From Phycicoccus sp. CSK15P-2 (GTDB lineage: Bacteria; Actinomycetota; Actinomycetes; Actinomycetales; Dermatophilaceae): 64,000 bases of DNA. The notes beneath the pieces are model-generated. The model had not been told where the DNA came from. It did not search any database and saw only the letters and a list, made by a program, of their open reading frames with translations. The position numbers were made by a program, and so were the translations under genes. Positions 1,782 to 54,700 of this stretch are shown in pieces. The stretch's first letter is position 1. The number at the start of each line of letters is the position of its first letter. The stretch lies in contig NZ_JAFDVE010000008.1 in NCBI RefSeq assembly GCF_016888005.1, forward strand, positions 1 to 64,000. The letters are read 5' to 3'.

Positions 1782-2851
1782 CGTGACTCCTGGGTGGAGG
1801 AACGGGAACGGAGCATCCAGAGGATGACGGGGGCACCGAGGGCACCGGTGACGACGCCCACCGGGAGGGCCGTGCCGGGCACTGCGGTCGCCGCGGCGTA
1901 GTCCGCCGCCACGACGACGACCGCGCCGACGAGCGCCGCGACACCGACGGCCGGGCGGCCCGGCACGAGCCGGCGGGCTATCGGGCCGCTGAGGAACCCG
2001 ACGAAGGCGACCGGCCCGACCACCGCCGTGGCAGCCGCGACGAGGCCGACGACCGTCACGGTCACCCCCACGCGCAGGCGCAGGACGTGCACCCCGAGGG
2101 CTGCGGCGAGGTCGTCGCCCAGCCCGAGGACGGGGAGCCGGCCGGAGAGGACGAGGAGCACGGGCAGGAGGACGGCGTCGACGACGAGCATCCGGAGGAT
2201 CTCGGCCCAGGTGACCGAGTTGAGGCTGCCGCTCAGCCAGACGAGTGCGTCCTGGGCCTGGTAGATGCTGGCCCGCACGAGGAGCCATTGGATGACGGCG
2301 AGCAGGCCGGCGGCGAGGGCCACGCCCACGAGCACCATCCGTCCGGTCGCCGCGCCGTGTCCGCCGGCCTGGCCGAGCAGGAGCGCGGCGACGGCGACCG
2401 CGCCGGCCAGGGCCGCGAGGGTCACCGGCGTGCCCCGGAGACCACCGAGCACGAGGGCGGCGACGGCGGCCGCGCTGGCGCCGACGGTGACCCCGAGGAT
2501 GTCGGGGCTCGCGAGCGGGTTGCGGAGCATGACCTGGAACGCGCCGCCGGCGGCACCGAACGCGGCGCCCGCGAGCACCGCCATGACCGCCCGCGGAAGG
2601 GTGGACTCCATGAGGACGAAGGACGCGCCGGGGATGTCGGTGCCGCCGAGGATGCGCACCGCGTCGGGGAAGGAGATGCGGTAGTCCCCGAGCAGTGCTC
2701 GGACGAGCACGAGCCCCACGAGGAGGAGGACGAGGACTCCGACGACGAGCGCGCGGCGGCGGCGCGGACCACGGCGGGCCCGGCTCAGGGCCTCCTGCGC
2801 CGGGTGCACGTCGGTCCCGGCGGCGGTGGCTCCTGCGGTGGCGAGGCTCAT
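1778..2851 (-). CDS. Iron-siderophore ABC permease (FecCD family, second subunit)
   Basis: 357-residue polytopic membrane protein of the FecCD/BtuC permease family, with about nine to ten predicted hydrophobic segments. Typical motifs are RNPLASPDILGVTVGAS, a cytoplasmic loop that contacts the ATPase, and the GPVAFVGFLSGPIARRLV block near the C-terminus. The ATG at 2851 shares one base with the TGA of the preceding permease (TGATG), and the gene's own stop overlaps the ATPase start. A GTG three bases further upstream is possible. It forms the channel heterodimer with the preceding gene. Confidence 0.92.
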   Translation of the reverse strand: MSLATAGATAAGTDVHPAQEALSRARRGPRRRRALVVGVLVLLLVGLVLVRALLGDYRISFPDAVRILGGTDIPGASFVLMESTLPRAVMAVLAGAAFGAAGGAFQVMLRNPLASPDILGVTVGASAAAVAALVLGGLRGTPVTLAALAGAVAVAALLLGQAGGHGAATGRMVLVGVALAAGLLAVIQWLLVRASIYQAQDALVWLSGSLNSVTWAEILRMLVVDAVLLPVLLVLSGRLPVLGLGDDLAAALGVHVLRLRVGVTVTVVGLVAAATAVVGPVAFVGFLSGPIARRLVPGRPAVGVAALVGAVVVVAADYAAATAVPGTALPVGVVTGALGAPVILWMLRSRSSTQESR

Positions 2852-3975
2852 CACATCCCCTTCACCCGGCGCACGACGAGGACGAGGACGGGCGCGCCGA
2901 GGACCGCGCAGACGATCCCGGCCTGCACCTCGGACGGGGGCGCGACCACTCGTCCGACGATGTCGGCGAACACCACGAAGGCCGGCCCGACGACGGCCGA
3001 GACGACGAGGACCCGCCGGTGGTCCACCCCGAGGAGGGCACGGACCAGGTGGGGGACGACGAGACCCACGAAGGCGATGGGCCCGGCGAGGGCCGTGGCC
3101 GTGGCGGCGAGGAGCACGGCCCCACCGGCCGCGAGCCCGCGGTGCAGCACGACGCGCTGGCCGAGGCCGCGCGCGAGGTCGTCCCCGAGCGCGACGGCGT
3201 TCAGGGTCGGCCCGGCCGTCAGCGCCAGGACGGCTCCGAGGACGAGGAACGGTGCGACGTCGAGCACCTGCCCGGCGTCCCGCCCGGCGACCGAGCCGAC
3301 CTGCCAGAACCGGAAGCTGTCGAAGGAGCCTCGGTCGGTGACGAGGACCCCGCCGATGAGGCTCTGGGCGAGGGCCATGACGGCGGCCCCGGCGAGCGCC
3401 ATGGACACCGGCGCCTCGGACCGCGGTGCCATGAGCGTGAGGGACTGCACCAGGAGGGCGACGACGACGGTCCCCACGAGGGCCGCGACGACGTAGCCCG
3501 TCACGGACGTGAGGCCGAGGAAGCGGATCCCGAGGACGACCGCCAGCGCGGCGCCGGAGTTGAGCCCGAGGATGCCTGGCTCGGCGATCGGGTTGCGGGT
3601 CAGTCCCTGCAGGACGGCGCCGCTGAGCGCCACCGCACCACCGACCGCGAGACCGATGAGGGTCCGGTCGACGCGCGCCGCGACGACGGCGGCGGCACCC
3701 GGGTCGGCCGGCCCACCGGTGACCACGGCGAGGACGACGCCCGGGTCGAGCCGCTGGACCCCGACGAGGAGCGAGGTGAGGACGGCGAGCGCGACGAGGA
3801 GCGCGCCGCCTCCCAGTGCGGCGGCCAGGGGCACGCGTCCGGACCCGGGGCCCCCCCCCCGGGGGGGGGGGCGGGGGCGGGCGGGGGGGGGGGGCGGCGG
3901 GGGGGGGGGGGCCCGGGGCCGCCCCCGCGCCACGAGGGCTGCGGGCCGGGTCCGGACGGGTGCCGTGGCCGTCAC
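2851..3975 (-). CDS. Iron-siderophore ABC permease (FecCD family, first subunit)
   Basis: 374-residue FecCD-type permease partnering the next gene. Seen: VLQGLTRNPIAEPGILGLNSGA and GPIAFVGLVVPHLVRALLG, the conserved FecCD blocks, and about ten hydrophobic helices. Start GTG at 3975 overlaps the binding-protein stop by GTGA. Residues about 20-45 are odd: a polyproline run and Gly/Arg-rich stretch encoded by long pure G or C runs (3845-3930). This segment precedes the first helix, is not expected in the family, and probably reflects a poor consensus; the true N-terminus may differ in length. The rest is normal. Confidence 0.85.
   Translation of the reverse strand: MTATAPVRTRPAALVARGRPRAPPPPPPPPPARPRPPPRGGGPGSGRVPLAAALGGGALLVALAVLTSLLVGVQRLDPGVVLAVVTGGPADPGAAAVVAARVDRTLIGLAVGGAVALSGAVLQGLTRNPIAEPGILGLNSGAALAVVLGIRFLGLTSVTGYVVAALVGTVVVALLVQSLTLMAPRSEAPVSMALAGAAVMALAQSLIGGVLVTDRGSFDSFRFWQVGSVAGRDAGQVLDVAPFLVLGAVLALTAGPTLNAVALGDDLARGLGQRVVLHRGLAAGGAVLLAATATALAGPIAFVGLVVPHLVRALLGVDHRRVLVVSAVVGPAFVVFADIVGRVVAPPSEVQAGIVCAVLGAPVLVLVVRRVKGM
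3845..3930. other. G/C homopolymer block inside permease gene
   Basis: About 85 bases made almost only of long G runs and C runs. It falls in the 5' part of the FecCD permease gene and encodes a polyproline tract without breaking the frame. Its make-up differs from all neighbouring coding DNA; a sequencing or gap-filling artefact is the likeliest reading. Confidence 0.6.
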
Positions 3976-5030
3976 TCGGCGGGCGTCCCGTTCAGCGCGG
4001 ACACGAGCTTGGGCAGGAAGACGTCCACGGCGGTCGAGACCGACAGCGGGCTCGGCAGGGACATCGACAGTGCCGTCGCGTTGTCGGCGCTCGCGACGTA
4101 GTGGTCCTGCTTCAGCGCCGGGATCTGGCCGATGAGGTCGTTCTTCTTGAGCATCTCGGGCCCGGTCTTCTCGTCGGCGTAGAAGACGATGACGTCGGCC
4201 TCGAGCTCCGAGGCCTTCTCGGCGGAGAGGTTGACGGAGAAGGCCTCCGGGTCCTTGGCGCTGAGCTCCGCGACAGTCGGGGAGTCCTGGAAGCCGAACT
4301 CGCGCAGCATCTGCGGGCGCAGGTCCGAGGTCGTGTACAGCCCCACCGTGGAGAGGTCGGTGGGCGTGAACCACGCCCAGGCGGCGGTCTTGCCCTGGAT
4401 GTCCGGGTTGGCCTCGACGGCCGCCTGGATCTTGGCCTCGGTGTCGGCGACGAGGCCGGCGGCGTCCTCGGACCGTCCGACGGCCTTCCCGATCGTCGTC
4501 ACCTGCTCCTGCCAGGGCGTTCCCCAGGGGGCGACGGTGTAGGCGACGGTGGGCGCGATCTTGGTGAGCTTGGTGTAGTCCTCCTCGGAGATGCCGCTGC
4601 TCAGCCCGAGGATGAGGTCGGGGGCGGCTGCGGCGATGTCGTCGAAGGGGATGCCCGCGGAGTCGTCGTACCGGGCGACGTCGGCGGGGTCGCCACCGAT
4701 CGCGGCCAGCTGGGCGTCGAACCAGTCGGTGGACTTGCCCTCGTTGCCGCCCCACGTGATGGCGGGGGCGCCGACGGGCACGATGCCGAGCGCGGCAAGG
4801 GTGTCGGCGTCGGCCCATCCGACCGTCGCGACGCGGGTGGGGGCCTGCTCGACGGTCGTCGCGCCGTGCGCGTGGTCGACCGTGACGGGGAAGGAGTCCC
4901 GGGAGATCGAGGGCTCGACCGACGACGGGGTGTCGGTGCTCCCCCCGGTGGGACCTGTCGAGCAGGCGGTGGCGGCGAGGATGAGTGCGGCGAGAGGGGC
5001 GGCGGCGAGCAGCCGGCGGCGCGATGGCAC
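3972..5030 (-). CDS. Iron-siderophore ABC transporter substrate-binding lipoprotein
   Basis: 352-residue extracytoplasmic binding protein (FepB/FhuD class, two-lobed fold). Seen: a basic N-terminus, hydrophobic h-region and lipobox ending at Cys23 (LAATAC), a Ser/Thr-rich linker, then the TroA-like core with TRVATVGWADADTLAALG near the start of the first lobe. The start is GTG at 5030 with GGAG about seven bases upstream. First gene of the iron operon; the iron box at 5060-5078 sits directly upstream, so DtxR/IdeR repression by iron is expected. It delivers the ferric siderophore to the two permeases downstream. Confidence 0.93.
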   Translation of the reverse strand: MPSRRRLLAAAPLAALILAATACSTGPTGGSTDTPSSVEPSISRDSFPVTVDHAHGATTVEQAPTRVATVGWADADTLAALGIVPVGAPAITWGGNEGKSTDWFDAQLAAIGGDPADVARYDDSAGIPFDDIAAAAPDLILGLSSGISEEDYTKLTKIAPTVAYTVAPWGTPWQEQVTTIGKAVGRSEDAAGLVADTEAKIQAAVEANPDIQGKTAAWAWFTPTDLSTVGLYTTSDLRPQMLREFGFQDSPTVAELSAKDPEAFSVNLSAEKASELEADVIVFYADEKTGPEMLKKNDLIGQIPALKQDHYVASADNATALSMSLPSPLSVSTAVDVFLPKLVSALNGTPAE

Positions 5031-5059
5031 GATGGACTCCAGTCGATGAGGTCACTTAC

Positions 5060-5078
5060 TTAGGTGAGCCTCACCTTA
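5060..5078 (-). promoter_or_regulatory. DtxR/IdeR iron box of the siderophore operon
   Basis: TTAGGTGAGCCTCACCTTA, a near-perfect 19-bp inverted repeat matching the actinobacterial iron-box consensus (TTAGGTTAGSCTAACCTAA) at most positions. It lies 30 bases upstream of the binding-lipoprotein start, where a bound repressor would block transcription. Confidence 0.9.
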
Positions 5079-5119
5079 CTCACATGCCGGGCGCCGTCGT
5101 CAACCCGCTCCCATCGCGG

Positions 5120-6334
5120 TCACTCCGGTGCGGACCACGCCTGGCGCAGCGACAGCCGGCCGCCGGTCTGCAGCAGGCTCCGCCGGTAGAGCCGCTGGGC
5201 GACACCCACGATGGCGACCGCCGTCGCCATGAGGAGGACCAGCGCCACGACCGCCTCCCACCAGGCCGCCCCGCCCTCGAGCAGCCGGGTCGGCATGAGC
5301 ACCGCCGAGAACGGTGGGACGAACGACAGGACCGTCCGGGCGGTGCCCTCGACGAGCATCGCGGCGAAGAACACCGCGAGCACGAGCATGAGCAGCGGTG
5401 CCGTCGTGCTCTGGATGTCCTCGGTACGCGACGCCAGGGCCCCGGCCGCGGCCCACAGCGCCGCGAGTGCCGCGAAGCCGGCCACGAAGAAGACGAGGTA
5501 CCAGGCCACCGGGCCGGTCACGACGGTCACGAGCCCGGAGTACTCGGTCAGGGCGATCCCCACGAGCCCGATCCCGGCGTAGAGCACCATCTGGAGGATC
5601 GCGATCAGGCTGTTGCCGACGATCTTCCCGGCCAGCAGGTGCCGGACCGGGATGGACGTCGTGATGATCTCGACCACGCGGCTCTGCTTCTCCTCGACGA
5701 CGCTGTTGGCGATGACGTACCCGAACGACAGCGCCGCGATGTAGAAGAGGAACCCGAAGGCGAAGCCGACGAACTCGGCGAGCCGGCTCTGCCGGGCGTC
5801 CCCTCGCAAGAGGCTCGTCGAGACCTCCGAGCCGGCCTCGAGCTCGGCCGTGGTCGTGCCGAGCGCCTCCGCCTGGCGTTCCAGGACGGCCGTCCGCACG
5901 ACGTCCTGGGTGACCCGGGTCAGGCCGGCGTTCTCGCTGTCCTCGGTCGTCAGCACCCAGCCGTCCTCGCCCAGGTGCAGCCAGGCGTCCGCGTCACCCG
6001 CGAGGACGAGGGACCGCGCCGCGGCGTCGTCCGCGGCCGGCTCGACGTCGACGGCCACCGTGTCCTCGGGGGCCTCGGCCGCCACCCGGTCGGCCATCTC
6101 CCGGTCCCCCGGCGTGGCGGTGACGGTGTACTCCGAGGTGCGCGAGGCGTCGTAGACCTGCCAGCCGGTGAACCCGCAGATGAGCAGGATCGTGAAGAGC
6201 GTCCCGAAGAGGAACGCCTTGTCGGTGAGCCGCACGACGATCTCGCGGCGTGCGACGAGCAGCCACGGGGCCGTCGCGGCCTCGGGGGTCGTGGCGGGCG
6301 CGTCGGTCCGGACGGGCCGGGTCGTGGTCGTCAT
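5120..6334 (-). CDS. ABC-2 type transporter permease (NatB-like)
   Basis: 404-residue membrane protein with one N-terminal helix (LFGTLFTILLICGFTGW), a large extracytoplasmic domain of about 150 residues and a C-terminal block of five to six helices, the layout of NatB/YhaP-type ABC-2 exporters. The ATG at 6334 overlaps the stop of the upstream ATPase (ATGA). Together they form an exporter controlled, by position, by the two-component pair further upstream. NatB relatives move Na+ or antimicrobial compounds; the substrate here is not readable. Confidence 0.85.
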   Translation of the reverse strand: MTTTTRPVRTDAPATTPEAATAPWLLVARREIVVRLTDKAFLFGTLFTILLICGFTGWQVYDASRTSEYTVTATPGDREMADRVAAEAPEDTVAVDVEPAADDAAARSLVLAGDADAWLHLGEDGWVLTTEDSENAGLTRVTQDVVRTAVLERQAEALGTTTAELEAGSEVSTSLLRGDARQSRLAEFVGFAFGFLFYIAALSFGYVIANSVVEEKQSRVVEIITTSIPVRHLLAGKIVGNSLIAILQMVLYAGIGLVGIALTEYSGLVTVVTGPVAWYLVFFVAGFAALAALWAAAGALASRTEDIQSTTAPLLMLVLAVFFAAMLVEGTARTVLSFVPPFSAVLMPTRLLEGGAAWWEAVVALVLLMATAVAIVGVAQRLYRRSLLQTGGRLSLRQAWSAPE

Positions 6335-7215
6335 CGGGTGGCCACCTCTCGGTAGATGTCGGCGAGCGCCGGGCGGACGAGGGAGAACTCGTGGACGGCC
6401 CCGCGTGCGGTGGCGTCGCGGAGCACGACCTGCTCGGCGCCGTGCTCCACGACCTCGAGCAGCGCGCTACGGCCGTCGAGGTCGACGACGTGCACCCCCC
6501 GCACCTCACGCAACCACCCGGTGTCGTGCTCGCACGTCATCCGGTACCGCACCGGCCCCTGGGACCGCAGCTCGTCCGCCCCGCCGGCCGCGACGACCCG
6601 TCCGTCCGCGAGGATGACGAGCCGGTCGCACAGCTGCTCGACGAGGTCGAGCTGATGGCTGGAGAACAGGACGGGGACGCCGGTAGCGCACCGTTCGCGC
6701 AGCAGGTCGGCCATCGCGTCGACGGCCGTCGGGTCCAGACCCGAGAAGGGCTCGTCGAGGACGAGAGCCGTGGGGCCGTGCAGGAGCGCCGCGACCACCT
6801 GGACCCGTTGCTGGTTGCCGAGGCTCAGCTCCTCGACCCGCGAGCGGGCCCGGTCGGCCAGCCCGAAGCGCTCGAGGTGCTCCTCGGCGGTGCGCCCCGC
6901 CTCGCCCGCCGACATGCCCTTGAGCTGACCGAGGTACACGAGCTGGTCCAGCACCCGCTGCTTGGGGTACAGGCCGCGCTCCTCGGGCATGTACCCGAAG
7001 CGGCGCTGGTCCTGCGGGGTGACCGGGCGCCCGTGCCAGCGCACCTCGCCGGCGTCGATGCCCAGGACGCCCATGACCATCCGCATGGTCGTCGTCTTGC
7101 CCGCGCCGTTGCCCCCGACGAACCCGGTGAGAACGCCGCCGAGGACGTCGAACGACACCCCGTCGACGGCCGTGACGTCGCCGAAACGGCGGGTGAGCTC
7201 GCTGATCTCCAACAT
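6331..7215 (-). CDS. ABC transporter ATP-binding protein (NatA-like)
   Basis: 294-residue ATPase: Walker A GGNGAGKTT (34-42), signature LSLGNQQRV, Walker B ALVLDEP and switch His in FSSHQLD, followed by a C-terminal DUF4162-like extension of about 75 residues usual in drug or Na+ exporters. It pairs with the overlapping ABC-2 permease. The ATG at 7215 has TAGCGT seven bases upstream, so it can be expressed leaderless even though it follows the response regulator by only 53 bases; both read-through and its own promoter are possible. Confidence 0.9.
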   Translation of the reverse strand: MLEISELTRRFGDVTAVDGVSFDVLGGVLTGFVGGNGAGKTTTMRMVMGVLGIDAGEVRWHGRPVTPQDQRRFGYMPEERGLYPKQRVLDQLVYLGQLKGMSAGEAGRTAEEHLERFGLADRARSRVEELSLGNQQRVQVVAALLHGPTALVLDEPFSGLDPTAVDAMADLLRERCATGVPVLFSSHQLDLVEQLCDRLVILADGRVVAAGGADELRSQGPVRYRMTCEHDTGWLREVRGVHVVDLDGRSALLEVVEHGAEQVVLRDATARGAVHEFSLVRPALADIYREVATR

Positions 7216-7222
7216 GCTCCCG

Positions 7223-7228
7223 ACGCTA
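7223..7228 (-). promoter_or_regulatory. -10 element (leaderless) of the ABC exporter
   Basis: TAGCGT read on the minus strand, exactly seven bases before the ATG at 7215, so transcription would begin at or next to the start codon. Confidence 0.5.
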
Positions 7229-7268
7229 GGGCCCGTCGGTACCCTGCGGGATCCACCCGCAGGTGGGT

Positions 7269-11778: not shown

Positions 11779-12414
11779 TCAGTCGGGCCGACCGGTGACG
11801 AGCAGGCCCGTGCCGAGCCCGACCATCATCAGCCCGCCGGTCCCGCCGACCCGCTCGAGACGGCGTGGCGAGGAGGCGAACCACTCCCGGAAGCGCGAGG
11901 CCGCAAGGGCCACCGAGCCGTCCATCACGAGGGCGACGGCGACGAAGACGGCACCGAGCGCCACGAGCTGGGACCACACCGGGCGGGCGGGGTCGACGAA
12001 CTGCGGGAGCAGCGCCATGAAGAAGACGAGCGACTTCGGGTTCGTCACCCCGACGACGTAGCCCTCGCGCAGGGCGCGCCGCACCCGGGTCGCCGGCAGC
12101 CCCTCGGCGAGCGCGGCGGCCAGGCCGCGCCGGTCCCGCAGCGCCTGGACACCGAGCCACACGAGGTAGAGGGCGCCGGCGACCTTGAGGACGGTGTACG
12201 CCGTCGCGCTCGACGCGACGACCGGGCCGAGGCCTGCCGCGATCGCGACGATCTGGGTGAGGATGCCGCCGGCGTTGCCGGCGACGGTGAGCAGCGCCGC
12301 GCGGCGTCCGGCCGCGAGCGCCCGGCCCACGGTGAAGAGGACCGACGGTCCGGGGATCGCGACGATGACGACGGACGCGAGGAGGAAGCCGAGCAGTGCG
12401 GCGGTGGTGGGCAC
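11779..12414 (-). CDS. LysE/RhtB-family amino-acid exporter
   Basis: 211 residues with about six hydrophobic helices and the LysE-family N-terminal signature (VAIPGPSVLFTVGRAL) plus GVTNPKSLVFFMALLPQFVD. The family exports amino acids such as lysine, homoserine or threonine. The start is GTG at 12414; an ATG 28 codons upstream would add an Arg-rich non-hydrophobic extension and is rejected. It converges with the DUF4328 gene with 15 bases between stops. Confidence 0.9.
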   Translation of the reverse strand: MPTTAALLGFLLASVVIVAIPGPSVLFTVGRALAAGRRAALLTVAGNAGGILTQIVAIAAGLGPVVASSATAYTVLKVAGALYLVWLGVQALRDRRGLAAALAEGLPATRVRRALREGYVVGVTNPKSLVFFMALLPQFVDPARPVWSQLVALGAVFVAVALVMDGSVALAASRFREWFASSPRRLERVGGTGGLMMVGLGTGLLVTGRPD

Positions 12415-12644: not shown

Positions 12645-15600
12645 ATGTCATCGGTCCTGCCCTCCCGGCGCGCGCTGACCGCGCTGCTGGCGACGAGCCT
12701 CACCGCCGCCCTGCTCGGCATCGCTCCGGTCACCCCGGCCGACGCCGCCTCCCGCCTCTCCCCGTTCGACGCCGTCGACCAGTTCATCGGCACCGAGCTC
12801 GACACGTCGGAGAACAAGAGCAACGACGCGTACGGCAACACCTTCCCCGGCGCGGCGCTGCCGTTCGGGATGGTGCAGCCCAGCCCGACGACGTACAAGA
12901 CGGACGAGCCGAACGGCCTGGTGCGGGAGAAGGGCGGCTACGAGTACACCGCCGACCAGATCCGCGGGTTCGGGCTGACCAGGTACTCCGGCTCGGGCTG
13001 CCACCTGCGCTTCGGCGGCTACGACATCCCGACCATCCCGTACAGCGGCGAGCTCGTGGACGGCACCCTGCCGGTGAGCCCCGACACCGACGTCCGGCGC
13101 TACTTCCTGGACTTCGACCACGACGACGAGGTCGCCGAGCCGGGCTACTACGCGGTGCGGACCGTCGACGGGACGAAGACCGAGCTGACCGCGACGACAC
13201 GCAGCGCGGTCAGCCGCTTCGACTTCGAGGACAACGCGACGCTGATCGTCGACGCCTCCGGGCCGAACAACCGGACGTTCGGGACGCACGTCGACATCGA
13301 CCCCCGGACCCGCACGGTGAGCGGGTGGACGCACGTCGCCGACATGTGCGACAACGGCAACTCCTACCGCCTCCACTTCTCGACCACCTACGACAAGCCG
13401 TTCACGTCCTACGGCACGTGGAACGGCGGGACGATGACCCGCGGGAGCCGCAGCGTCGAGAAGGTCGCCGAGGACACCTCCGTCGACTACCGGCACGACA
13501 CCGGCGCCTGGCTGACCTTCGCCGACGGCGCCCGGGTCACCGCCCGTACCGGCGTGAGCTTCGTCAGCGTCCGGAACGCCGCCGTCAACCGGGTGGTCGA
13601 GTCGCAGCTGCGCAGCTTCGACGGTGTCCGCTGGGCCGCCCGCAAGCACTGGGAGCAGGCGCTCGGCACGGTCGACGCCACGGGCGGGTCGGCCGAGGAC
13701 CGCACCGAGCTGTACACGGCCGTCTACCACTCTCTGCTGCACCCGAACATCCGCGACGACGTCAACCGCGAGTACCTGGGCTACGACGGGAAGGTGCACC
13801 AGGCCGCCTGGGGCCGGCACTTCTACATGAACTTCGCCGGCTCGGGCTGGGACATGTACCGCAGCCAGGCGCAGCTCATCGCCCTGCTGTACCCGGAGGT
13901 CGCCGCCGACGTGCTCCAGTCGATGGTCCTGCTGCACGAGCAGACCGGTGGATGGCAGCCCGGGGCGGCGCGGATGCAGGGCGACAACCTGCCCGTGATC
14001 ATCGCGACGCTCGACGACATGGGTATTCGGGACTACGACCGGAAGGCCGCGCTGAAGGGCATGGTCGAGGCCCAGCAGCTGCCGGCGACGAAGAGCGACC
14101 GCTCGGACGCCCTCCAGTACTTCTCCACCGGCTTCGTCGAGAACCGCAAGGGCGACTTCGCGACGAGCCGCGTCCTCGAGTACGCCACCGACGACTTCGC
14201 CATCGCGCAGCTGGCCGGGTCCCTCGGGGAGGACGCGACGCACGACCGGTTCATGGAGCGCGCGCAGAGCTGGCTGCAGGTCTTCGACCCGACGACCCGG
14301 CACATCCGCCCGCGCTCGCGTAACGGCTTCGACCGGGGGTTCGACCTGCGGGGCCGGGACGGCACCGGCGGCGGGCAGTTCAACCAGTCGACGGGATACC
14401 AGTACGGCTGGAACGTTCCGCAGAACATGGCCGAGCTCATCGAGCGCCGCGGGGGCGCCGAGGCCGCCGAGGACCAGCTCGACACCCTGATGGAGGAGCT
14501 CGACGCCGGGGCCTACACGAAGACCGGCAACTACCTCTCCAACGAGCCGGCCTTCATGACCCCGTGGGTCTACCACTGGCTCGGGGCGCCGGAGAAGACC
14601 GCGGACATCCTGGCCCGGGCCGACGTCGAGCTCTTCGACACGACACCGGCCGGGCTGCCCGGCAACGACGACCAGGGGGCGCTGAGCGCCTGGTACGTCT
14701 TCTCCCGGATCGGGATGTTCCCCGCCGTGTACGGCACCGGCGACATGCTGCTCACCGCCCCGGCGTTCGAGCAGGTCGAGATCGACCCGGTGGGCTCGCG
14801 CCGGACGATCCGGGTCAGCGCGCCGAAGGTGTCGGACGAGCGCCGGTACGCCACCGGCCTCCGGGTGAACGGGCGGAGGCAGTCGGCGTCCTGGGTGGAT
14901 GCCGACTTCGTCCGCCGTGGCGGCCGGCTGGACTTCACCGTCTCCGGCACGCCCGGTCGCTGGGGCACCGGCGCCCAGGACCTCCCCCCCTCGTACGGCG
15001 AGGGCGTGGACGCCCGCAACAACGTGGGCACCACGCCGGACGGCGTACCGATGATGGGCTCGCTCGACATGAGCGACTGGTCGCTGTCCCGCGAGTCGCT
15101 CGCCGCAGCGGGCGCCGGCCCCGGCGACACCCTCGAGTTCCAGGCCGGGCTCACCTTCACCTGGCCCGACGTCGACCCCGGCCGACCCGACAACTGGGTC
15201 CCGCACGGCCAGCGCCTCGACGTCGAGGACCAGAAGGCTGCGAGCCTGTCCTTCCTCGGGCTCGCGACGAACGGGCCGTCCACCGGTGACGCGGTGGTCG
15301 AGTACACCGACGGCACGACCCAGCGCGTCCCGGTCTCCCTCGCCGACTGGGGTGCGGACGGCCGGGCGCAGGCCAACACCGCCCTCGTCGAGGTGAAGGG
15401 ACGGAACAACGCGAACGGCAGCTCGGGCGGCGGCACCTTCCGGGTCTTCGCCACGCGCCCCGCAGCGCTGGACGCGACGAGGACGGTGGACGCCGTCGTC
15501 CTGCCCCAGGCCTCCTACGACGGGGTCATGCACGTCGTCGACCTCGCGCTCTCCGCCGAGGAGTGGGAGGACCCGGACGCCCCGAAGGGGACGCCGGAGC

Positions 15601-17585
15601 GGGTCGTGCTGACCCTCCCCGAGGACGCCTCGACGGGCCAGTACGTCACGTGGCGCACCCGCAGCGTGCGGACGCCGGACGGCGTCGTCGAGGTCCGGTC
15701 CGCGGGCGGTGGGGCGGTCCGCGTCGTCGACGCCGAGGAGCAGACCGAGCGCACCGTCGGGGGCTACCCCGCACGGAGCCACTCGGCACTGATCGACGGA
15801 CTGACGCCCGGGACGACCTACGAGTACCGGGTGGGCTCGGCCGCCGCGTGGTCCGACTGGCACTCGTTCACCACGGCCACGGCCGGTGAGGACCCCTTCA
15901 CGTTCCTGTACTTCGGCGACGCCCAGGAGGGCATCGACGACTCGTGGCGGGAGACCGTCCGGCGCGCCCGCGAGGCCGAGCCGGACGCCGACCTGTCGCT
16001 CTTCGCCGGAGACCTCATCAACACCGCGACGGCCGAGAAGGAGTGGAACGACTGGTTCGACGTCCTCACCGACGTCGGGGCCGCCACCGAGCACAACGCG
16101 GTCGCCGCGATGGGCAACCACGAGATCGGCGGCGACCCGCTCGCCCCGGTGTACCGGGACAGCTTCGAGTACGCCGCCAACGGCCCCGAGGCCTCGGACG
16201 CCGGCGAGTACGAGGCGACCTTCGGGGCGCACCTGGCCGGTGTGATGAAGGACAGCGTGTACTTCACCGACCACCAAGGCGTCCGGTTCGTCACGATGAA
16301 CGCCAACCGCGACGACATCTGCACGATCGCGAAGCCGGCCGGGATGACCGACTACGACTGCGGCACCGCCCGGACCGCGTGGATGACGATGCAGGCGTCG
16401 TGGCTGGACCGCGTGCTCGCCGACAACCCGAACCGGTGGGCGGTCATGCTGACCCACCAGCCGATCTTCTCGACCGGCGTCACCGGTGGCGGGCTGCGCG
16501 ACGAGGACGACTGGCGGCGGCACATCGGGCCGGTGCTCGAGCGGCGCAACATCGACCTCGTGCTCCAGGGCCACGACCACACCTACGGCCGCGGCCACAT
16601 GAACCGCAACGAGACGGCGACACCGGGCCTGACCACGGGGCCGGTCTACGTCAACGCCGACGGCGGCTCGAAGATGTACCAGCTGTCACCGGAGGACGAC
16701 AACGTCTGGACCCGCAACAACGCCGAGGCGGTGCGCCGGGCCCAGGACACCTCCACGTACCAGGCGATCCACGTCGACGGCGACACGTTGCGGTACGAGT
16801 CGGTCGTCACCTACGTCCGCCCCGGCGGCGAGGCCTACACCGAGGTCGGTGACGTCCTCGACTCGTTCACGGTCACGAAGTACGACGACGGGGCGAAGTG
16901 GGTCGCCGAGGCCGGCGTCGAGGTCCCCGGCGACGAGGTCGCCTCGCAGGTGCGTCCGCAGCCCACCCTGGGGCTGGCCGACACCTTCGACCCCGCGACG
17001 TTCGCCCCCGTGGCGCGCGACGACGACTTCTCGGCCGACCCGCTGGGCGGCTACGAGGTCGTCGCCGGCGGCGGGGAGGCCCTGCCCGAGGTCGGGGTGG
17101 ACACCGGCAAGGGCGTGCTGACGGCCACGGCGTCGACGCGGTCCTGGGCGAACCTCCGCCTGCCCGAGGAGGCCGGGGACCGGTGGGCGCTCGTCGTCGA
17201 GCCGACGTCCTTCGCCGGGACCGGTGCGGCCGAGGACAGCCTGTTCCTCGGCTCGGGTCTGGACGGGTCGCACCAGGTGCTGCACTGGTACAACCACACC
17301 CGCGGCGAGGCCGGGTTCGACTTCGCGAACGGCTCCGGCAAGACGGTGGGCCGCGGCAACCAGCGGCTCACCTGGCAGGCGGGTGACCGGCTCGCCCTCG
17401 TCGCCGAGTACGGCGAGGTCAGCTCGTGGGTCGAGCACGACGGCACGTGGCGCCGGGTGAACCTCGCGCTGCTCGCCTACGGGGTCGACGAGGCGGACCT
17501 CGCCTCCTGGCACCCCACCGTCGGGCTGCGGCTCGACCCGGGGTCGATCACCCTCGACCGGGTCACGCTGCTGGCGGGCGAGTAG
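12645..17585 (+). CDS. Secreted GH92 alpha-mannosidase fused to a purple-acid-phosphatase-like domain
   Basis: 1,646 residues. Signal peptide 1-35 (cleavage near ADA-AS). Residues about 40-770 are glycoside hydrolase family 92, Ca2+-dependent exo-mannosidases (SGWDMYRSQAQLIALLYP, GLPGNDDQGALSAWYVFS at 670-687). The usual catalytic-acid motif E-G-N-x-W-Q-Y is here Q-S-T-G-Y-Q-Y, with Gln581 in place of Glu. After a beta-rich spacer come an Fn3-like N-domain of purple acid phosphatases (about 985-1080) and a metallophosphoesterase domain with GD (D1092), GDLIN, GNHE (1157-1160), TH and GHDH (1309-1312), all metal ligands present; a C-terminal jelly-roll-like domain ends it. Likely acts outside the cell on phosphorylated mannans. 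ATG at 12645 opens the signal peptide; the Shine-Dalgarno is weak. Confidence 0.9.
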   Translation: MSSVLPSRRALTALLATSLTAALLGIAPVTPADAASRLSPFDAVDQFIGTELDTSENKSNDAYGNTFPGAALPFGMVQPSPTTYKTDEPNGLVREKGGYEYTADQIRGFGLTRYSGSGCHLRFGGYDIPTIPYSGELVDGTLPVSPDTDVRRYFLDFDHDDEVAEPGYYAVRTVDGTKTELTATTRSAVSRFDFEDNATLIVDASGPNNRTFGTHVDIDPRTRTVSGWTHVADMCDNGNSYRLHFSTTYDKPFTSYGTWNGGTMTRGSRSVEKVAEDTSVDYRHDTGAWLTFADGARVTARTGVSFVSVRNAAVNRVVESQLRSFDGVRWAARKHWEQALGTVDATGGSAEDRTELYTAVYHSLLHPNIRDDVNREYLGYDGKVHQAAWGRHFYMNFAGSGWDMYRSQAQLIALLYPEVAADVLQSMVLLHEQTGGWQPGAARMQGDNLPVIIATLDDMGIRDYDRKAALKGMVEAQQLPATKSDRSDALQYFSTGFVENRKGDFATSRVLEYATDDFAIAQLAGSLGEDATHDRFMERAQSWLQVFDPTTRHIRPRSRNGFDRGFDLRGRDGTGGGQFNQSTGYQYGWNVPQNMAELIERRGGAEAAEDQLDTLMEELDAGAYTKTGNYLSNEPAFMTPWVYHWLGAPEKTADILARADVELFDTTPAGLPGNDDQGALSAWYVFSRIGMFPAVYGTGDMLLTAPAFEQVEIDPVGSRRTIRVSAPKVSDERRYATGLRVNGRRQSASWVDADFVRRGGRLDFTVSGTPGRWGTGAQDLPPSYGEGVDARNNVGTTPDGVPMMGSLDMSDWSLSRESLAAAGAGPGDTLEFQAGLTFTWPDVDPGRPDNWVPHGQRLDVEDQKAASLSFLGLATNGPSTGDAVVEYTDGTTQRVPVSLADWGADGRAQANTALVEVKGRNNANGSSGGGTFRVFATRPAALDATRTVDAVVLPQASYDGVMHVVDLALSAEEWEDPDAPKGTPERVVLTLPEDASTGQYVTWRTRSVRTPDGVVEVRSAGGGAVRVVDAEEQTERTVGGYPARSHSALIDGLTPGTTYEYRVGSAAAWSDWHSFTTATAGEDPFTFLYFGDAQEGIDDSWRETVRRAREAEPDADLSLFAGDLINTATAEKEWNDWFDVLTDVGAATEHNAVAAMGNHEIGGDPLAPVYRDSFEYAANGPEASDAGEYEATFGAHLAGVMKDSVYFTDHQGVRFVTMNANRDDICTIAKPAGMTDYDCGTARTAWMTMQASWLDRVLADNPNRWAVMLTHQPIFSTGVTGGGLRDEDDWRRHIGPVLERRNIDLVLQGHDHTYGRGHMNRNETATPGLTTGPVYVNADGGSKMYQLSPEDDNVWTRNNAEAVRRAQDTSTYQAIHVDGDTLRYESVVTYVRPGGEAYTEVGDVLDSFTVTKYDDGAKWVAEAGVEVPGDEVASQVRPQPTLGLADTFDPATFAPVARDDDFSADPLGGYEVVAGGGEALPEVGVDTGKGVLTATASTRSWANLRLPEEAGDRWALVVEPTSFAGTGAAEDSLFLGSGLDGSHQVLHWYNHTRGEAGFDFANGSGKTVGRGNQRLTWQAGDRLALVAEYGEVSSWVEHDGTWRRVNLALLAYGVDEADLASWHPTVGLRLDPGSITLDRVTLLAGE

Positions 17586-48104: not shown

Positions 48105-48716
48105 CTATGGGTCTCGAACGACTTCAGTGATCGGCGTTCCCTCCGGAAGGCCCCTCACCTGCCGTCTCAGTTGCCCCATGATCGTCCAGTACACGTCGAG
48201 GTCCGAGAGCTCCACGTTGGCGACGACGTCTTGCCCTCCCAAGAACAGGGGCCGCTTGTATCCCACACACTCCGCCACTGTCGGGACTGACCCACCCGAG
48301 TGCCGCCACTGATCGAAGAAGGTCCGGGCCAACGCCTCCTCGGTGTAGTCGACCAGCTCCTCGTCGTGGAACCGTGAGAAGGGAACCGGAATCTCGAGCG
48401 CTTCTCCGGTCCCCGGTTCGAACAGCATGACCTCAGGGTCGCCATCCGACCCACGCGCTGCGTCCGTCGCGAACTGTCGGCCGAGCCAGTCGTAGCCGAA
48501 GCACGTCAACCGCCCTGCGAACTCAGGAAATCCTGCACGCACCAGAGCGTCCGAGCTGCGCGCCGAAGCCCTCGTGTGGACGCGGTACAGGCCATCCCCG
48601 AAGGTTCTCCCGCCAGCCGCGTCCAACCATGCCCCCACGGTGCCGTCCACGGACTGAGTCACGAGGCTCGGCCCGTCGCTGACGGCGAACGTGGCAAGGA
48701 AACGCTCGAACATCAT
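48105..48716 (-). CDS. Immunity protein, Tdi1/DUF1851 (GAD-like) family
   Basis: 203 residues. The DUF1851 pattern is clear: GGRTFGDGLYRVH, CFGYDWLGRQFATD, FEPGTGEALEIPVPFSRFHD, VGYKRPLFLGGQDVVANVEL and LDVYWTIMGQL. This family includes Tdi1, which neutralises type VI DNase effectors, and is common behind polymorphic toxin genes. The ATG at 48716 overlaps the toxin's TGA by ATGA, giving tight co-translation so that protection is made with the toxin. An adjacent ATG at 48713 is possible. Cytoplasmic. Confidence 0.85.
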   Translation of the reverse strand: MMFERFLATFAVSDGPSLVTQSVDGTVGAWLDAAGGRTFGDGLYRVHTRASARSSDALVRAGFPEFAGRLTCFGYDWLGRQFATDAARGSDGDPEVMLFEPGTGEALEIPVPFSRFHDEELVDYTEEALARTFFDQWRHSGGSVPTVAECVGYKRPLFLGGQDVVANVELSDLDVYWTIMGQLRRQVRGLPEGTPITEVVRDP

Positions 48717-51700
48717 GGTCGTCTCGGACAGATCGACACGCGGCAAACGAGGGTCCCTGGGAGCAATTTGCGTTTGCGGGTTTGTCCGCTGATCTGAGCG
48801 CCCAAACTTCGGTTCACCGAACTGTCCAACGGCTTCATGTTCATGAGATCGTCCGCGCCACCCAACTGAAGATCGATGACGTGATCTACGTCCGACCCTG
48901 GCGGTATGCTATGTCCAGCAGCACGATACCGCTGAGAAGCCGTAGGGCCAGAACGTTTCTTGACCTGAGTGACCACCAGCCTGTCAGCGGCGTTCAGTGC
49001 GGCAACCTTCTCGTCCGCTGCCTGCTTCTGAGCATGAGACCAGCCCTCCTTGTACTTCAAGGTCAACGAGACCCCATCGGCTGGACGAGTTGCGGCTTCT
49101 TGGCCTGCTGCTTCGCCGCCGCAGTTGTGGACGAGAACCGGGGTGTCGTCCGCCAGCACGTAGTAGGTGTGCACGCCGGCGACGGTCAGGTCGTTCATGA
49201 GTTCCGGACCGGGCCGGACCTTCACACTACTCACCTGCTGGGTCCCGCGGCCGTCGGACCCGCGGAGGACGTCACCGGGCTCGAGATCCTCGGCGTCGGT
49301 CCACCGCCCGGTGGTGGCGTTCCAGAAGGGGTGGTGGGCGGTCGTGCGCACCTCCGTCCACTCCCCGGTAGCGGTGTCGGTGACCGTGACGTCGACCAGG
49401 TCGCGGTCGTCGTTGCGGTGCAGGACCCGTACCGGCTGAGCGCTGGTCTCGCCCGTCTCCGGGTCGGTGGCCAGGACCTCGTCGTCCAGCTTCACCTCGG
49501 AGATCTTCTGGGTGGTGCCGTCGGCCATCTGCACACGGGTGTCGGGGTCGAAGCTGTGCCGCACACAGGCCCGGGCCGTGTCGGCGACATCGTCGGAACG
49601 GCTACCTCCGGAACGCACGGCGTCGTCGACGTAGCCGTCCCCGGCGGCGACGGCCTCGTCGGCACGGCCCCCGACGCGGCTGGTGCCGCGCGCGGCGTCG
49701 TCGGCGTGCTCGGCCAGCTCGCGGGTGGCGCGGCCGGCACCTCGCGCCGCACGCCGCCCGGCCGTGACGACCTTGCCCGCGCGACCGGCGACGGCCTTGG
49801 CGACCGGTGCCGCAGCCTTGCTCACGGCCTTGGCCGCGGCGGCGCCCATCATCGGCAGGGCCGCGCCGAGCCCGCCGGCGAGCCCGCCCATGGCGGCGTC
49901 ATGGAGCAGCTCCAGGCCGGTGTGGCCCTCCATGGCGCCGGTGACCAGGCCGCCGAGGGCTCCGGCGGCCATCCCGCAGGCGGCCACGCCGACCCCTGTC
50001 CATCCGACCGCGAGCAGACAGGCGGCCTCCACGATCATGCCCACGATGGCACCGACGATCTCGGCCTTGTGCTCGACGATCCAGTCACGTGCGGTGTGTG
50101 CCCACTGCGAGACACGCTCGGCGGCGGCCAGCAGTCCCGTCCCGATCGCCGTGATCTTCTCGTAGGCCCGGGTCACCGACTGCCTGACCTCGTCGACTCG
50201 GTCCTTGGCGTAGTCCACGGCGCTCCGGCCGAGGTCCCGCACACGCCTGCCGGCATCTCGGAACCCCTCCCGGATCTTCTTGCCGGCGTTCTTGACCCTG
50301 TCCAGGAACTTGCCTCGGTGGCCGGAGGGGTCGGTGACGACCAGCGGGTTGCCGTCGCCGTACTGGTACCGGTTGGCCGCGATGGAGTCCGGGACCGGCG
50401 AGTTGGTGAGGCCGTCGCGGGTGCCGAACTGGGCGGTGCCCGGGTCGTACCAGCGGGCGTGCATGTTGACGCGACCGGTGGCCGGGTCGGTCCATTCCGA
50501 CTGGTAGCCCAGGCTGCCGAGCATGTCCTTCTCGCTGGTCACCTCTCCCAGCGGGCTGTAGCTGCGGCTGGCCGTCACCTCCGCACCGTTGGTGTCGAGC
50601 TGCGCCACCACGTCGTCGTGGAGGTCGGTCCACACCAGCCGGCTGGTGCTCCCGGTGGTCACCGCGGTCACGTCGCCGTCCGGATCGCGCAGGTAGCCGG
50701 TGCCGCCGTCGGTGGCCAGGTCGTTCTGCAGGCCGGAGTAGGCGAACCCGTCGCGCAGCACGCGGCCGAGCGCGTCGTACCCGTAGGACCGGGTGGCCCC
50801 GGCCGAGGCCTGGGTGACGACCTGGTCGAACGCGTCCGCGACGGTCGTGATGCTGGTGCCGGCGCCCGACTCCGAGGCCCGTGTGCCCCGCGCGGTGTAG
50901 GTGAAGCCACGCCCCTCGGTGTCGGAGACCAGCCGGTTGCGCTGGTCGTAGACGTAGTCGACGTCCCCCACTCCGGTCCGGTTGCCGGAGGCGTCGTAGC
51001 GGTAGCCGACGGTGGTGGCACCGTCGTCCCACGAGGTGAGCCGATTGGCCAGGTCGTAGGTGTAGGAGTCGGTGGTGGTGGCGCCGTCGAGGGTGACGAC
51101 CTTGGACGTCTCGTTGCCGGAGGCGTCCCAGCCGTAGGCGATCGAGGCGATGGTGTCCCCGTCGGCGTCGGCCAGCGTGTCGCTCGTGAGCCGGTGGAGG
51201 TCGTCGTAGCCGAAGACCCGCCGGTTGCCGGAGTCGCCGAAGGTCATCGACGCCACCTCCGACATCGCCGTGTAGGTGTACCCGATCGAGACCCCGGCCT
51301 CGGTGTTCTTGACCGACGCCAGCCGGGCCGCGTCGTCGTAGCCGTAGCTGGTGGTGCCGGCCACGTCGGTGCGCGAGGCCATCAGCCCGTCGGGGGTGTA
51401 GGTGAAGGACGCGTCACCGGACGGGCCGCTCAGCGAGACGGGCAGGCCCCGGTCGTCGTAGGCGACCGTGTTGGTGCCGCCCGGGGCCGAGAACTGGGTC
51501 AGCCGGCCAGCGGCGTCGTAGCCGAAGTCACGGTCGGCCGTCTCCGCCTCGGCGCCCGACCCGGCCTGCCGGGTCAGCCGGCCGGCCTCGTCGTAGGCGA
51601 AGGTGCGGGTGACCCCGCCCGGCACCCTCTGCGACACCGCCTGCCCGGCCGCGTCGTACACCGTGGTGAAGGTCCGGTCGGCAGGGTCCGGGTGGGCCTC

Positions 51701-54700
51701 GGTGGCGGGCTCGATCCGCGACTGCACCAGGTCCCACGGAGTGTAGGTGGTGGTGAACGCGTTGCCCCGTCCGTCGGTGAACCGGGTCGGGTTGCCGGCC
51801 AGGTCGTAGCCGAACGACGTGTCGATACTCGTGTCGGCGTCGACCGGCTGCGACTCGGTGGCCATCCGCCCGGCCGCGTCGTAGCCGAACCGGGTCGTGG
51901 CTCCCCGCGCGTCGGTGACTGCCACGGCGTTACCGGCGGCGTCGTAGCCCCAGGAGGTGGTAGCCAGTGCGGGACCGCCATCCTCCGAGTACGCCGCCGA
52001 GGAGGTCGGCCGGGAGAGCATGTCGAAGTCCGTGACGGTGTAGCCGCCGTCGGGGTCGACCTGCTTGACCGCCCGGCCCAGCACGTCGTAGACCACGCTG
52101 GTGGTCTCGCCGGCTCCGTCGACCATGCTGGTCACCTGGCCGAGCGCGTCGTAGCCGTAGGTGGCGCTCACCCCGGCCGGGGTGGTCACCATGGCCAGCC
52201 GCCCCGCGTCGTCGTAGGTGCCGGTGGTGGTGTAGACCTCCTCGGCCTGCCGGACCGCCTCGTCGACGCTGGTCAGGTTGCCGAGCAGGTCGTAGGCGAA
52301 CCCGGTGACCGCCTCGTTCGGGTCGGTCACCGACAGCACGTTGCCCAGCAGGTCGTAGCGCGTCGTCGTGGTGCCGCCGTCGGGCGCGACCTCGGTGACC
52401 GGCCGGCCCAGCTGGTCGTAGGCGAGCGTGGTCGTACGCCCGAGGGGGTCGGTGTGCGAGACGAGCTGACCCATCGGGTCGTACTCCAGCACCGTCCGGG
52501 CGTTGATCGGCGCCGATGTACCCGGTGGGGTGTAGCCGGGCAGACGGACGGCCTGCTGCCGGCCTGCCTGGTCGATCTCGTAGGTGGTGACGTGACCGTT
52601 CGGGTCGGACTCCTCGACGACGTCACCGAACGCGTTGTACCCGATCGTCGTCACCGCCCGGGCGGTCACCGCCGGTCCGTCACCGGGCTCCGCCTGCACC
52701 GGTGGCCCGACCGTCATGACCGGCCGGTCCGCCTCGTCGTGGGACACGTGCGTGGTGTTGCCCCGCGCGTCCACCACCGCCGTCGCCAGACCGCCGGTGT
52801 CGAGCACGCTGGAGGTGCGGGAGACGCCGGTCGCAGCGCCGGGAACGGTGCCATCGGCCACGCCGACGGCCCAGTCGTCGTCGTACGACACCTGCTGGTA
52901 CATCTGCAGGTCCGAGATCGCGCCGCGGAACATCCGCGACGCGGAGCCGCCGACCCGCACACCCCCTACGGCAACGCTGTGCGTCTCGGCACCGCCGAAG
53001 CTGCCGACCTTGACCCCGTCGAGGAAGATCGTCCACAACTTGGACTGTGGGCTCACTCCCACGGCCACGTGCTGCCAGGCACCGGCCCTCACCGAGCCCT
53101 GCCCGACGATCCTGGAGCTGACGGCGACCTCGCCGTCGGCCCCGTGGCCGGCAGTCTCTGCACGCCATCCCTTGGCTGCGGCGTCGAAGGACAGCCGGAA
53201 CGCCGGGTGCGTGTCCGACACGCCGGGGATCTCGAGCACGGTGGCGTCCGATCGGATCCTGTCGGCCCGCAGCCAGGCCGCCACCGTGTACCCGTTGGTG
53301 GTGTCCACCACCGGCCCCGCGGTGGTGATCTGTGACGTGTTGCGGTCGAACACCGCCACCGGGCCTCGCTGCGGGTCGTCCTTCCACCGCACGCCGGTGG
53401 CCGTACCGGGGGTGTTGCCGGCCGTGTCGGCGGCCGTGGATCCCTCGATCTCGTCCAGCCGCCACCGGGCCACCGGCGTCGTCGCCGGGTCGCCACCGAA
53501 GCGGGTCTCCGACACCGATCGCCCCAGCACGTCGTAGGCGTAGTCGATGGCCTCCAGCAGGTTGCCGGAAGAGTCCCGGGTGACCTGCGAGATCACCTGG
53601 TCGTCGGGTGCCAGTTTCAGGAAGGTGTTGCGGGCGATCCCGCTCGGGTCCTGCACGATGCGGATCTGCCGGCCCGCCGCGTCGTACCCGAACCTCGTGA
53701 CCGTCCTGCCGTTGGCGCTGCGCTGCTCCTTCAGGTTCCCGGCCGCGTCGTAGCTGTTGCGTTCCAGCACGAACGAGGTGTCGCCGTCCGAGCGGGTGAC
53801 GGTGGCGGTCCGGCCGTCGTCGGTGTACGTGTAGTCGACCGTGTAGCCCATCGCGTCGGTGCTCGACGCCATCCGGCCCGCCGGGTCGTAGGTGGCCGAC
53901 TCGACCACCAGGTCCTCCGGCTCCTGAGGGTCGTTCGGGTCCCCGGTGTAGTCCTCGATCGTGCGGGACAGCTGGTTGCCGTTCGCGTCCACGGCGTAGG
54001 TGCTGACCGTCCCGTCCGGGTCGGACTGCTTCACCAGATGTCCGTAGACGTCGTACTCGTACGACGTCCGGTCTCCGGTCGCGGCCGTCTCGGAGGCCCG
54101 GCGGCCGTGCTCGTCGTACGTCCATTCGGTCACCCGCTCCGGGTCGCCGCCGGTGAGGTCGCTGACGACCTGCCCGGCCAACAGGTCACCGTCGGGACCG
54201 TCGAACAGGTTCCTCATCTGCGGGGTGTGGACCGCACCGGTCACCCGGTTGGTCACCGCCGGGTCCGTCTGGGTCACCACGCGACCCACCGCGTCGTAGG
54301 TGTACGTCGTGGTCCGCCCCTCGGGGAACGTCGAGGTCGACACCGTCTCGGTGAGCTGGCGGCCCTGCGCGTCGTACTCGTAGGTGGTCTTCGCGCCCGC
54401 CGGGTCGACCACCGTCGCCAGGTCACCCGCGGCGGTGTAGGTCATGGTGCGCAACCCGCCGGAGGCGTCCACCACCTTCCACGGCAGGCCCCTCGGTGCC
54501 TGGCCACCGCCCGAGGCCGGCACACTGGTGCCGTCGGTATAGGTGATCGTCGTCGTCCGGCCCACGGGGTCGGTCGTCGTCAGCAGGTTCCCGGCCGCGT
54601 CGTAGGTGTACGACGTCAGGTACGTGTCGTCCTCCGGCCCCGCCGAGCCCGGCCCGCGCTCCGCGAGGAGCTTGCCGTTGCGCGGGTCGGCCCGGTCGTC

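Follow-up and report, generated by a model that had tools for sequence, protein, structure and literature searches.

The 64,000-nucleotide stretch of Phycicoccus sp. CSK15P-2 DNA analysed here (the window) contains a gene that raises the question of what a GH92 glycosyl hydrolase may do when glutamine stands in place of its general-acid glutamate and the same polypeptide carries a metallophosphoesterase (MPE). The reading frame at 12645-17585 (+) translates into one chain of 1646 amino acids; it is open upstream as far as a GTG at 12396, and the likely start codon, judged by eye, is the ATG at 12645, right after which a signal-peptide-like stretch begins, so that the protein is probably secreted. 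All four Pfam domains lie within these same 1646 residues, as expected from the preliminary description of one chain combining GH92 with a phosphoesterase, and the scores of both GH92 domains exceed the Pfam cut-offs. Translation also places the motifs where that description had put them, i.e. QSTGYQY at 581-587, GNDDQG at 673-678, GDAQ from 1091 (with D1092), GNHE from 1157 and GHDH from 1309. The layout of the gene is as follows, with the basis of each assignment in brackets.

12645-17585 (+): whole fusion gene, GH92-MPE protein (translation, Pfam, full-length orthologs)
12645-12749 (+): signal peptide region, approximately residues 1-35 (hydrophobic stretch after RR, by eye)
12774-13559 (+): GH92 N-terminal domain, residues 44-305 (Pfam PF17678 Glyco_hydro_92N, 180 bits)
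13578-14945 (+): GH92 catalytic domain, residues 312-767 (Pfam PF07971 Glyco_hydro_92, 382 bits)
14997-15554 (+): middle domain, residues 785-970 (no Pfam match; present in 22/22 members of the clade defined below)
15594-15875 (+): N-terminal, fibronectin-like domain of purple acid phosphatases (PAPs), residues 984-1077 (Pfam PF16656 Pur_ac_phosph_N, 70 bits)
15855-16586 (+): metallophosphoesterase domain, residues 1071-1314 (Pfam PF00149 Metallophos, 56 bits)
16980-17582 (+): C-terminal domain, residues 1446-1646 (no Pfam match; present in the 11 type-1 fusions described below)

The curated NCBIfam model TIGR01180 is passed above its cut-off and names the chain merely a GH92 glycosyl hydrolase, a name that may mislead for an enzyme lacking the acid.

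The best match of the chain in the PDB is the GH92 alpha-mannosidase BT3130 (6f8z; 258 bits, residues 62-774), and this alignment pairs Gln581 with the Glu of FTEGNAWQY. By hand count that residue is Glu535, reported as the general acid of BT3130 (PMC5930347). The replacement at the catalytic acid that had been proposed for this chain is thus borne out, and it is shared by all members of a clade of 22 GH92 chains that carry the motif Q[SA]T[GA] (counts exclude a broken copy, L105/L125, and L021, which has an internal stop). The residues of the GH92 half on which the argument turns are these.

14385-14387 (+): Gln581, replacing the general-acid Glu (translation, alignments)
14661-14678 (+): GNDDQG, with the general base Asp676 (Asp676 in 22/22 clade members)
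12813-12833 (+): insertion N-K-S-N-D-A-Y, residues 57-63 (clade-specific, right before the conserved GNT loop)
12888-12890 (+): Thr82 (Thr in 22/22 clade members)

Gln581, Thr583, Gln586, Asp676, Asp403 and Gly118 are each invariant in the clade (22/22), within which the median pairwise identity is 0.56 (18 members first in hand). Constancy of the Gln at this level of divergence points to selection instead of recent descent, and a dead GH92 domain would be expected to drift rather than to keep it. In a 63-row GH92 tree, from which near-duplicate rows were omitted, the 17 clade rows form one branch (SH-aLRT 100). A scan of genome_contigs found full-length orthologs in Sediminivirga luteola (56% identity) and Nocardioides sp. 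SYSU D00065 (62% identity), both with the domain order, the Gln and the MPE residues of the window chain; such conservation of architecture at these identities, together with a Gln in 22/22 chains, places the combination of Gln and MPE beyond chance. The broken copy mentioned above (G609 C10 273338-275426) is a clade GH92 gene split over two frames, with internal stops.

A phosphate leaving group requires no protonation, and a mechanism that uses both halves of the chain can be formulated accordingly. In its first step the GH92 half would act as an inverting hydrolase on a sugar-1-phosphate diester and release alpha-mannose, or another manno-configured sugar, with Asp676 activating water and the phosphate departing without a proton, which is why Gln581 could replace Glu; in its second step the tethered MPE half would strip the newly exposed phosphate monoester. 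Mannosyl-phosphate glycans from fungi, actinobacteria or other sources might serve as substrate. We give about an even chance to this two-step action of a secreted protein on sugar phosphodiesters; the two activities, their order, the secretion and the substrate are what the domains, the constancy of the Gln, the kept residues and two most likely independent fusions would point to, all of them read from sequence. Precedent for the first step exists in CcMan5 of Cellulosimicrobium cellulans, a GH92 enzyme reported active on mannosyl phosphodiesters (PMC5930347). Introduction of Gln into an ordinary GH92 enzyme is reported to abolish activity in AnGH92A (E598Q; PMC12858847), and in BT3990 the exchange of the acid for Gln or Ala is described as lowering activity strongly whilst leaving some (PMC10167667), so that a chain with Gln may still be an ordinary mannosidase.

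The sugar-binding site bears on a reading in which the GH92 half is a pseudo-glycosidase whose sole task is to bind mannose glycans and thereby direct the phosphatase to them. Such a role would suit the loss of the acid, a match below cut-off (400.6 of 800 bits) to an NCBIfam model named 'lectin', and the -1 subsite of the type-1 fusions, where the loop containing Trp390 in BT3130 lacks, by eye, its second Trp in 8/10 rows; L095, L096 and unfused basal rows have it. The BT3130 counterpart of this Trp binds O4, and its apparent loss would make a sugar other than plain mannose possible. However, other -1 subsite residues are kept, namely Asp403 (Asp353 in BT3130) and Gly118 (Gly92; numbering mapped by hand), and since these two and the general base are each found in 22/22 chains, and the Gln is never replaced, we consider a purely binding role quite improbable.

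Two further positions fit an anionic substrate. Residue 58, in the clade-specific insertion, is basic in all 22 members (20 Lys, 2 Arg), and position 82, Thr throughout the clade, is also Thr in 16/16 chains of a second Gln clade, with Arg in both rows of the CcMan5 type, as against Asp in 29, Val in 7, Tyr in 7, Met in 2, Thr in 2 and a gap in one of 48 distinct Glu-type chains; the two Glu-type chains with Thr count against the two-step reading. Residue 499 is acidic in 22/22 clade members (20 Glu, 2 Asp) and Pro in 30/48 Glu-type chains, and its loop is expected on the active-site side, so that Glu499 could be an acid that has moved. On this basis the protein might be an ordinary alpha-mannosidase acting on plain alpha-mannosides with Glu499 or another carboxylate as its acid, the MPE being a secreted phosphatase of general use that is attached for convenience; that MPE matches without GH92 are frequent agrees with the latter part. 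Moved acids are uncommon, an acid near this place is nothing special given that BT3130 has Pro-Glu facing positions 499-500, and the proposal leaves the constancy of Gln581 unneeded, for which reasons we regard it as distinctly unlikely. Predicted structures of the GH92 domain and of the middle domain with the MPE, made from 3-row alignments, reached a mean pLDDT of 31 and 40 and were both discarded, and scans of viral_contigs gave no relatives with which to deepen these alignments.

CcMan5 (2xsg/4aq0) resembles the window chain in its GH92 fold, in a Gln at the acid position (LYQGTLWQYHW), in a Q-x-T motif and in lacking Asp82; unlike the window chain it has MDNDAG in place of GNDDQG as its base motif, and it sits on a separate long branch. 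The preliminary description had left it to alignment whether Gln581 falls within the uncapping clade to which CcMan5 belongs, and the trees speak against this: the CcMan5 type branches separately from the window chain in both the 36-row and the 63-row tree, with the place of long branches, including this one, flagged as unsure by the tree program. The candidate assignment of the chain to the CcMan5 branch was accordingly rejected. In the 63-row tree the Gln label needs three changes, of which two are forced by starred branches, and in none of 200 bootstrap trees (0%) of the 36-row set do all Gln rows form one group. Gain and loss of Gln are indistinguishable in these trees, and separate origins of Gln within GH92 are the simplest reading of them, not a proved one.

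Three Gln branches of GH92 are seen here, with probably at least two origins of Gln. The second Gln clade, marked by FAQG[ST], comprises 16 chains, 14 of which came from the search of the Nocardioides family, and lies closer to the window clade than the CcMan5 type does; these two clades may share one origin of Gln. Its Gln and its Thr82 suggest that it may be another unrecognised group of sugar-phosphodiester hydrolases. The loci concerned are L012, L040, L073-L083, L085, L086 and L145 (wider loci L060, L061 and L127-L129); none of seven scanned neighbours of these genes matches Metallophos, and one of the neighbours is SpoIIE-like, a member of a protein-phosphatase family and hardly relevant here.

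The genome of the window contains four GH92 genes, the fusion included. Two are of the Glu type (L007, with FHEGGSYQYQW, and L006, with FTETNGWNF), and the fourth, L008, is an ortholog of CcMan5 (1235 bits to 2xsg) with Gln in YQGTLWQYHW; the genome therefore has two different Gln-type GH92 proteins, and the known uncapping type lies outside the window. L008 is unlike the fusion in that it bears CBM_6 modules and no phosphoesterase. Its gene (G000 C36, approximately 61.9-64.3 kb) is some 20 kb from that of the Glu-type L007 (C36, approximately 39-41 kb), on a contig different from that of the window. The presence of a CcMan5 ortholog in this genome already, and the unfused state of that ortholog and of the second Gln clade, count against the two-step reading.

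The phosphoesterase half has the D, D, NH, H, HxH signature of PAP-like metallophosphoesterases. The preliminary description had called this an intact purple-acid-phosphatase-like domain, which holds as regards the Pfam domains and as regards D1092, D1123, N1158, H1159, H1271, H1310 and H1312, metal-ligand or catalytic residues found in 17/17 homologs of both MPE types considered below; it fails at the Fe-binding Tyr that PAPs have in GDxxY and that gives them their purple colour, where the window chain reads GDLIN and where N, D or E stands in 17/17 homologs. A PDB search with the MPE as a single sequence gave no match, and the best profile matches are plant purple acid phosphatases (1xzw, E 1.6e-13). 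With these enzymes (1xzw, 2qfp, 1kbp) the MPE shares six of the seven PAP metal ligands; it differs in lacking the Tyr and in its low overall similarity. The domain is thus PAP-like by Pfam, without the Tyr of a strict purple acid phosphatase, and its sequence is compatible with a phosphomonoesterase and with a diesterase alike.

Other fusions of these domains, for which the preliminary description had proposed a search, do exist: 13/22 clade members carry an MPE, 11 of them (including L165) of the type found in the window (type 1) and two, L123 and L168, of a far-diverged type that is preceded by an extra stretch (type 2). In a Pfam scan, Metallophos and Pur_ac_phosph_N together were found in 0/40 Glu-type and in 11/35 Gln-type GH92 chains, the latter all belonging to the clade by profile search (11/18 clade members of the scan), and MPE was found in 0/16 chains of the second Gln clade and in 0/1 CcMan5 orthologs. 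None of the scanned chains is truncated at its 3' end, a few are so at the 5' end, and there are several near-duplicates; for eight of the 48 distinct Glu-type chains the 3' end lies off the locus, and these were excluded. Since the chains were sampled with queries that contain the MPE, the sample is biased toward relatives of the fusion and no P value is attached to the association of MPE with Gln. Two of the 40 Glu-type chains also match the endo-mannanase family GH76, which is another glycan-related fusion.

A tree of the MPEs (8/11 type-1 rows and both type-2 rows, three type-1 rows being omitted) puts a 100/100 branch between the two types, groups either one with GH92-less relatives, and unites the fused MPEs in 0/200 bootstrap trees; an earlier tree, from which most type-2 relatives were absent, had united them in 42% of 200. 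The nearest unfused relatives found for the type-2 MPE lie in frames of approximately 820-1100 amino acids, 43-44% identical, with the match limited to the MPE half, and in the GH92 tree the unfused Gln chain L167 is the sister of the two type-2 chains (100/100). From this split, the GH92-less relatives on either side of it and the lack of any bootstrap tree uniting the fused domains, it is most likely that the fusion arose twice in the Gln clade, with different phosphoesterases, and such a repeat is what one would predict for two halves acting in sequence, which favours the two-step idea.

Fusion has also been reversed, it seems. The unfused chains L097-L100, from genomes of 7.8-9.4 Mb, stop right after the middle domain and nest among fused chains in the GH92 trees, which suggests that they have lost the MPE; no free-standing type-1 MPE was found within approximately 5-7 kb of their genes, a result that counts against the two-step reading. 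As nine of the 22 clade members are without an MPE, four of them apparently through such loss, a second step in the same chain would be dispensable. The fusion gene is rare and patchy across genomes. Full-chain matches were counted in at least 1/186 genomes of the window's family (itself), at least 2/294 of the family of the Nocardioides carrier (one being the carrier), at least 7/297 of the Sediminivirga order (one being the carrier) and at least 1/396 of the phylum (itself), all of them lower bounds given that at most two candidates were scored per genome. With a type-2 fusion as query, 150 genomes of its family yielded one further fusion of each type, and a tblastn search of plasmids hit 94 records without reaching 80% query coverage in any.

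Considering Gln as a recurring route by which GH92 becomes a sugar-phosphodiester hydrolase, and the Q[SA]T[GA] branch as one that twice gained an MPE and so came to uncap and dephosphorylate mannosyl-phosphate glycans outside the cell, we arrive at a more general proposal, which we hold tentatively and judge slightly less probable than not.

The preliminary description had the protein feeding on yeast phosphomannan or similar glycans, and for yeast phosphomannan the genomes lend little encouragement. No mannan cluster is seen among the ten scanned neighbours of the window gene, which comprise a periplasmic binding protein, two ABC transporter parts, a two-component pair, seryl-tRNA synthetase, a LysE-type transporter, an Na+/H+ exchanger, glucose-6-phosphate dehydrogenase and a Dyp-type peroxidase, and none of them is shared with 16 other loci. 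GH76 was not found in 8/11 fusion-carrier genomes tested, that of the window included (the carriers of L165 and L168 were left out), which makes yeast mannan doubtful as a food for most carriers.

The walls of actinobacteria include poly(glycosyl 1-phosphate) polymers, and the same two catalytic halves might instead take manno-configured caps off such bacterial glycosyl-phosphate polymers, or off other phosphoglycans, as a source of phosphate. The scarcity of GH76 suits this purpose, as do the finding of no GH92 besides the fusion in the genome of the Nocardioides carrier and the presence, beside the fusion in L115, of a gene with 5'-nucleotidase C and Metallophos matches that has a homolog in L116. 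A literature search on actinobacterial poly(glycosyl 1-phosphate) walls returned nothing to the point, and genes shared near L114, L121 and L122, one of which in L114 encodes a solute-binding protein of the SBP_bac_1 type, also fit uptake of sugar for carbon. We would call phosphate scavenging of this kind unlikely, whilst regarding a bacterial glycosyl-phosphate polymer as a serious alternative to yeast mannan.

Large surface-type proteins are encoded beside some of the fusions. The gene in L115 (1862-6907, +) has lamin-tail and SLH matches in addition to Metallophos and 5'-nucleotidase C, and its homolog in L116 occupies 2220-7268 (+). For the gene in L058 (2888-7384, +) lamin-tail domains were matched, together with an LPXTG-type anchor that stays below the Pfam cut-off, and phosphoesterase motifs can be made out by eye.

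Amongst known systems, BT3130 and related GH92 alpha-mannosidases share with the window chain the NDD base motif in addition to supplying its best PDB match, and differ in having Glu as acid and in consisting, as the 727-residue PDB chain, of GH92 alone. The mammalian uncovering enzyme NAGPA also uncaps a sugar-1-phosphate diester, leaving mannose 6-phosphate, but is an unrelated protein that removes GlcNAc and keeps the phosphate. For yeast mannan in Bacteroides thetaiotaomicron, the review PMC10154615 describes removal of the phosphate-attached mannose by a GH38 enzyme, followed by phosphatases; these are the same two steps, carried out by separate proteins and with GH38 instead of GH92.

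Uncapping by a Gln-type GH92 (CcMan5) and the division of the two steps over separate proteins are thus already known; new, as far as our searches of open-access literature can tell, are the Q[SA]T[GA] branch, its fusion to an MPE and the second such fusion, which involves another MPE. The claim that such a fusion had not been described agrees with our search of titles and abstract openings, which returned no GH92-phosphatase fusion in the open-access literature, most subscription papers lying outside it. Were the two-step reading correct, Gln at the acid position of GH92 would predict sugar-phosphodiester hydrolases among chains now named mannosidases, the GH92 half alone would offer a second uncapping scaffold besides CcMan5 for mannose-6-phosphate glycans, and the repeated fusion would be a case of convergent domain recruitment pointing to the product of a reaction. 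Elsewhere in the window, an open frame of 3473 amino acids at 48713-59134 (-) has a coding-like GC content by codon position.
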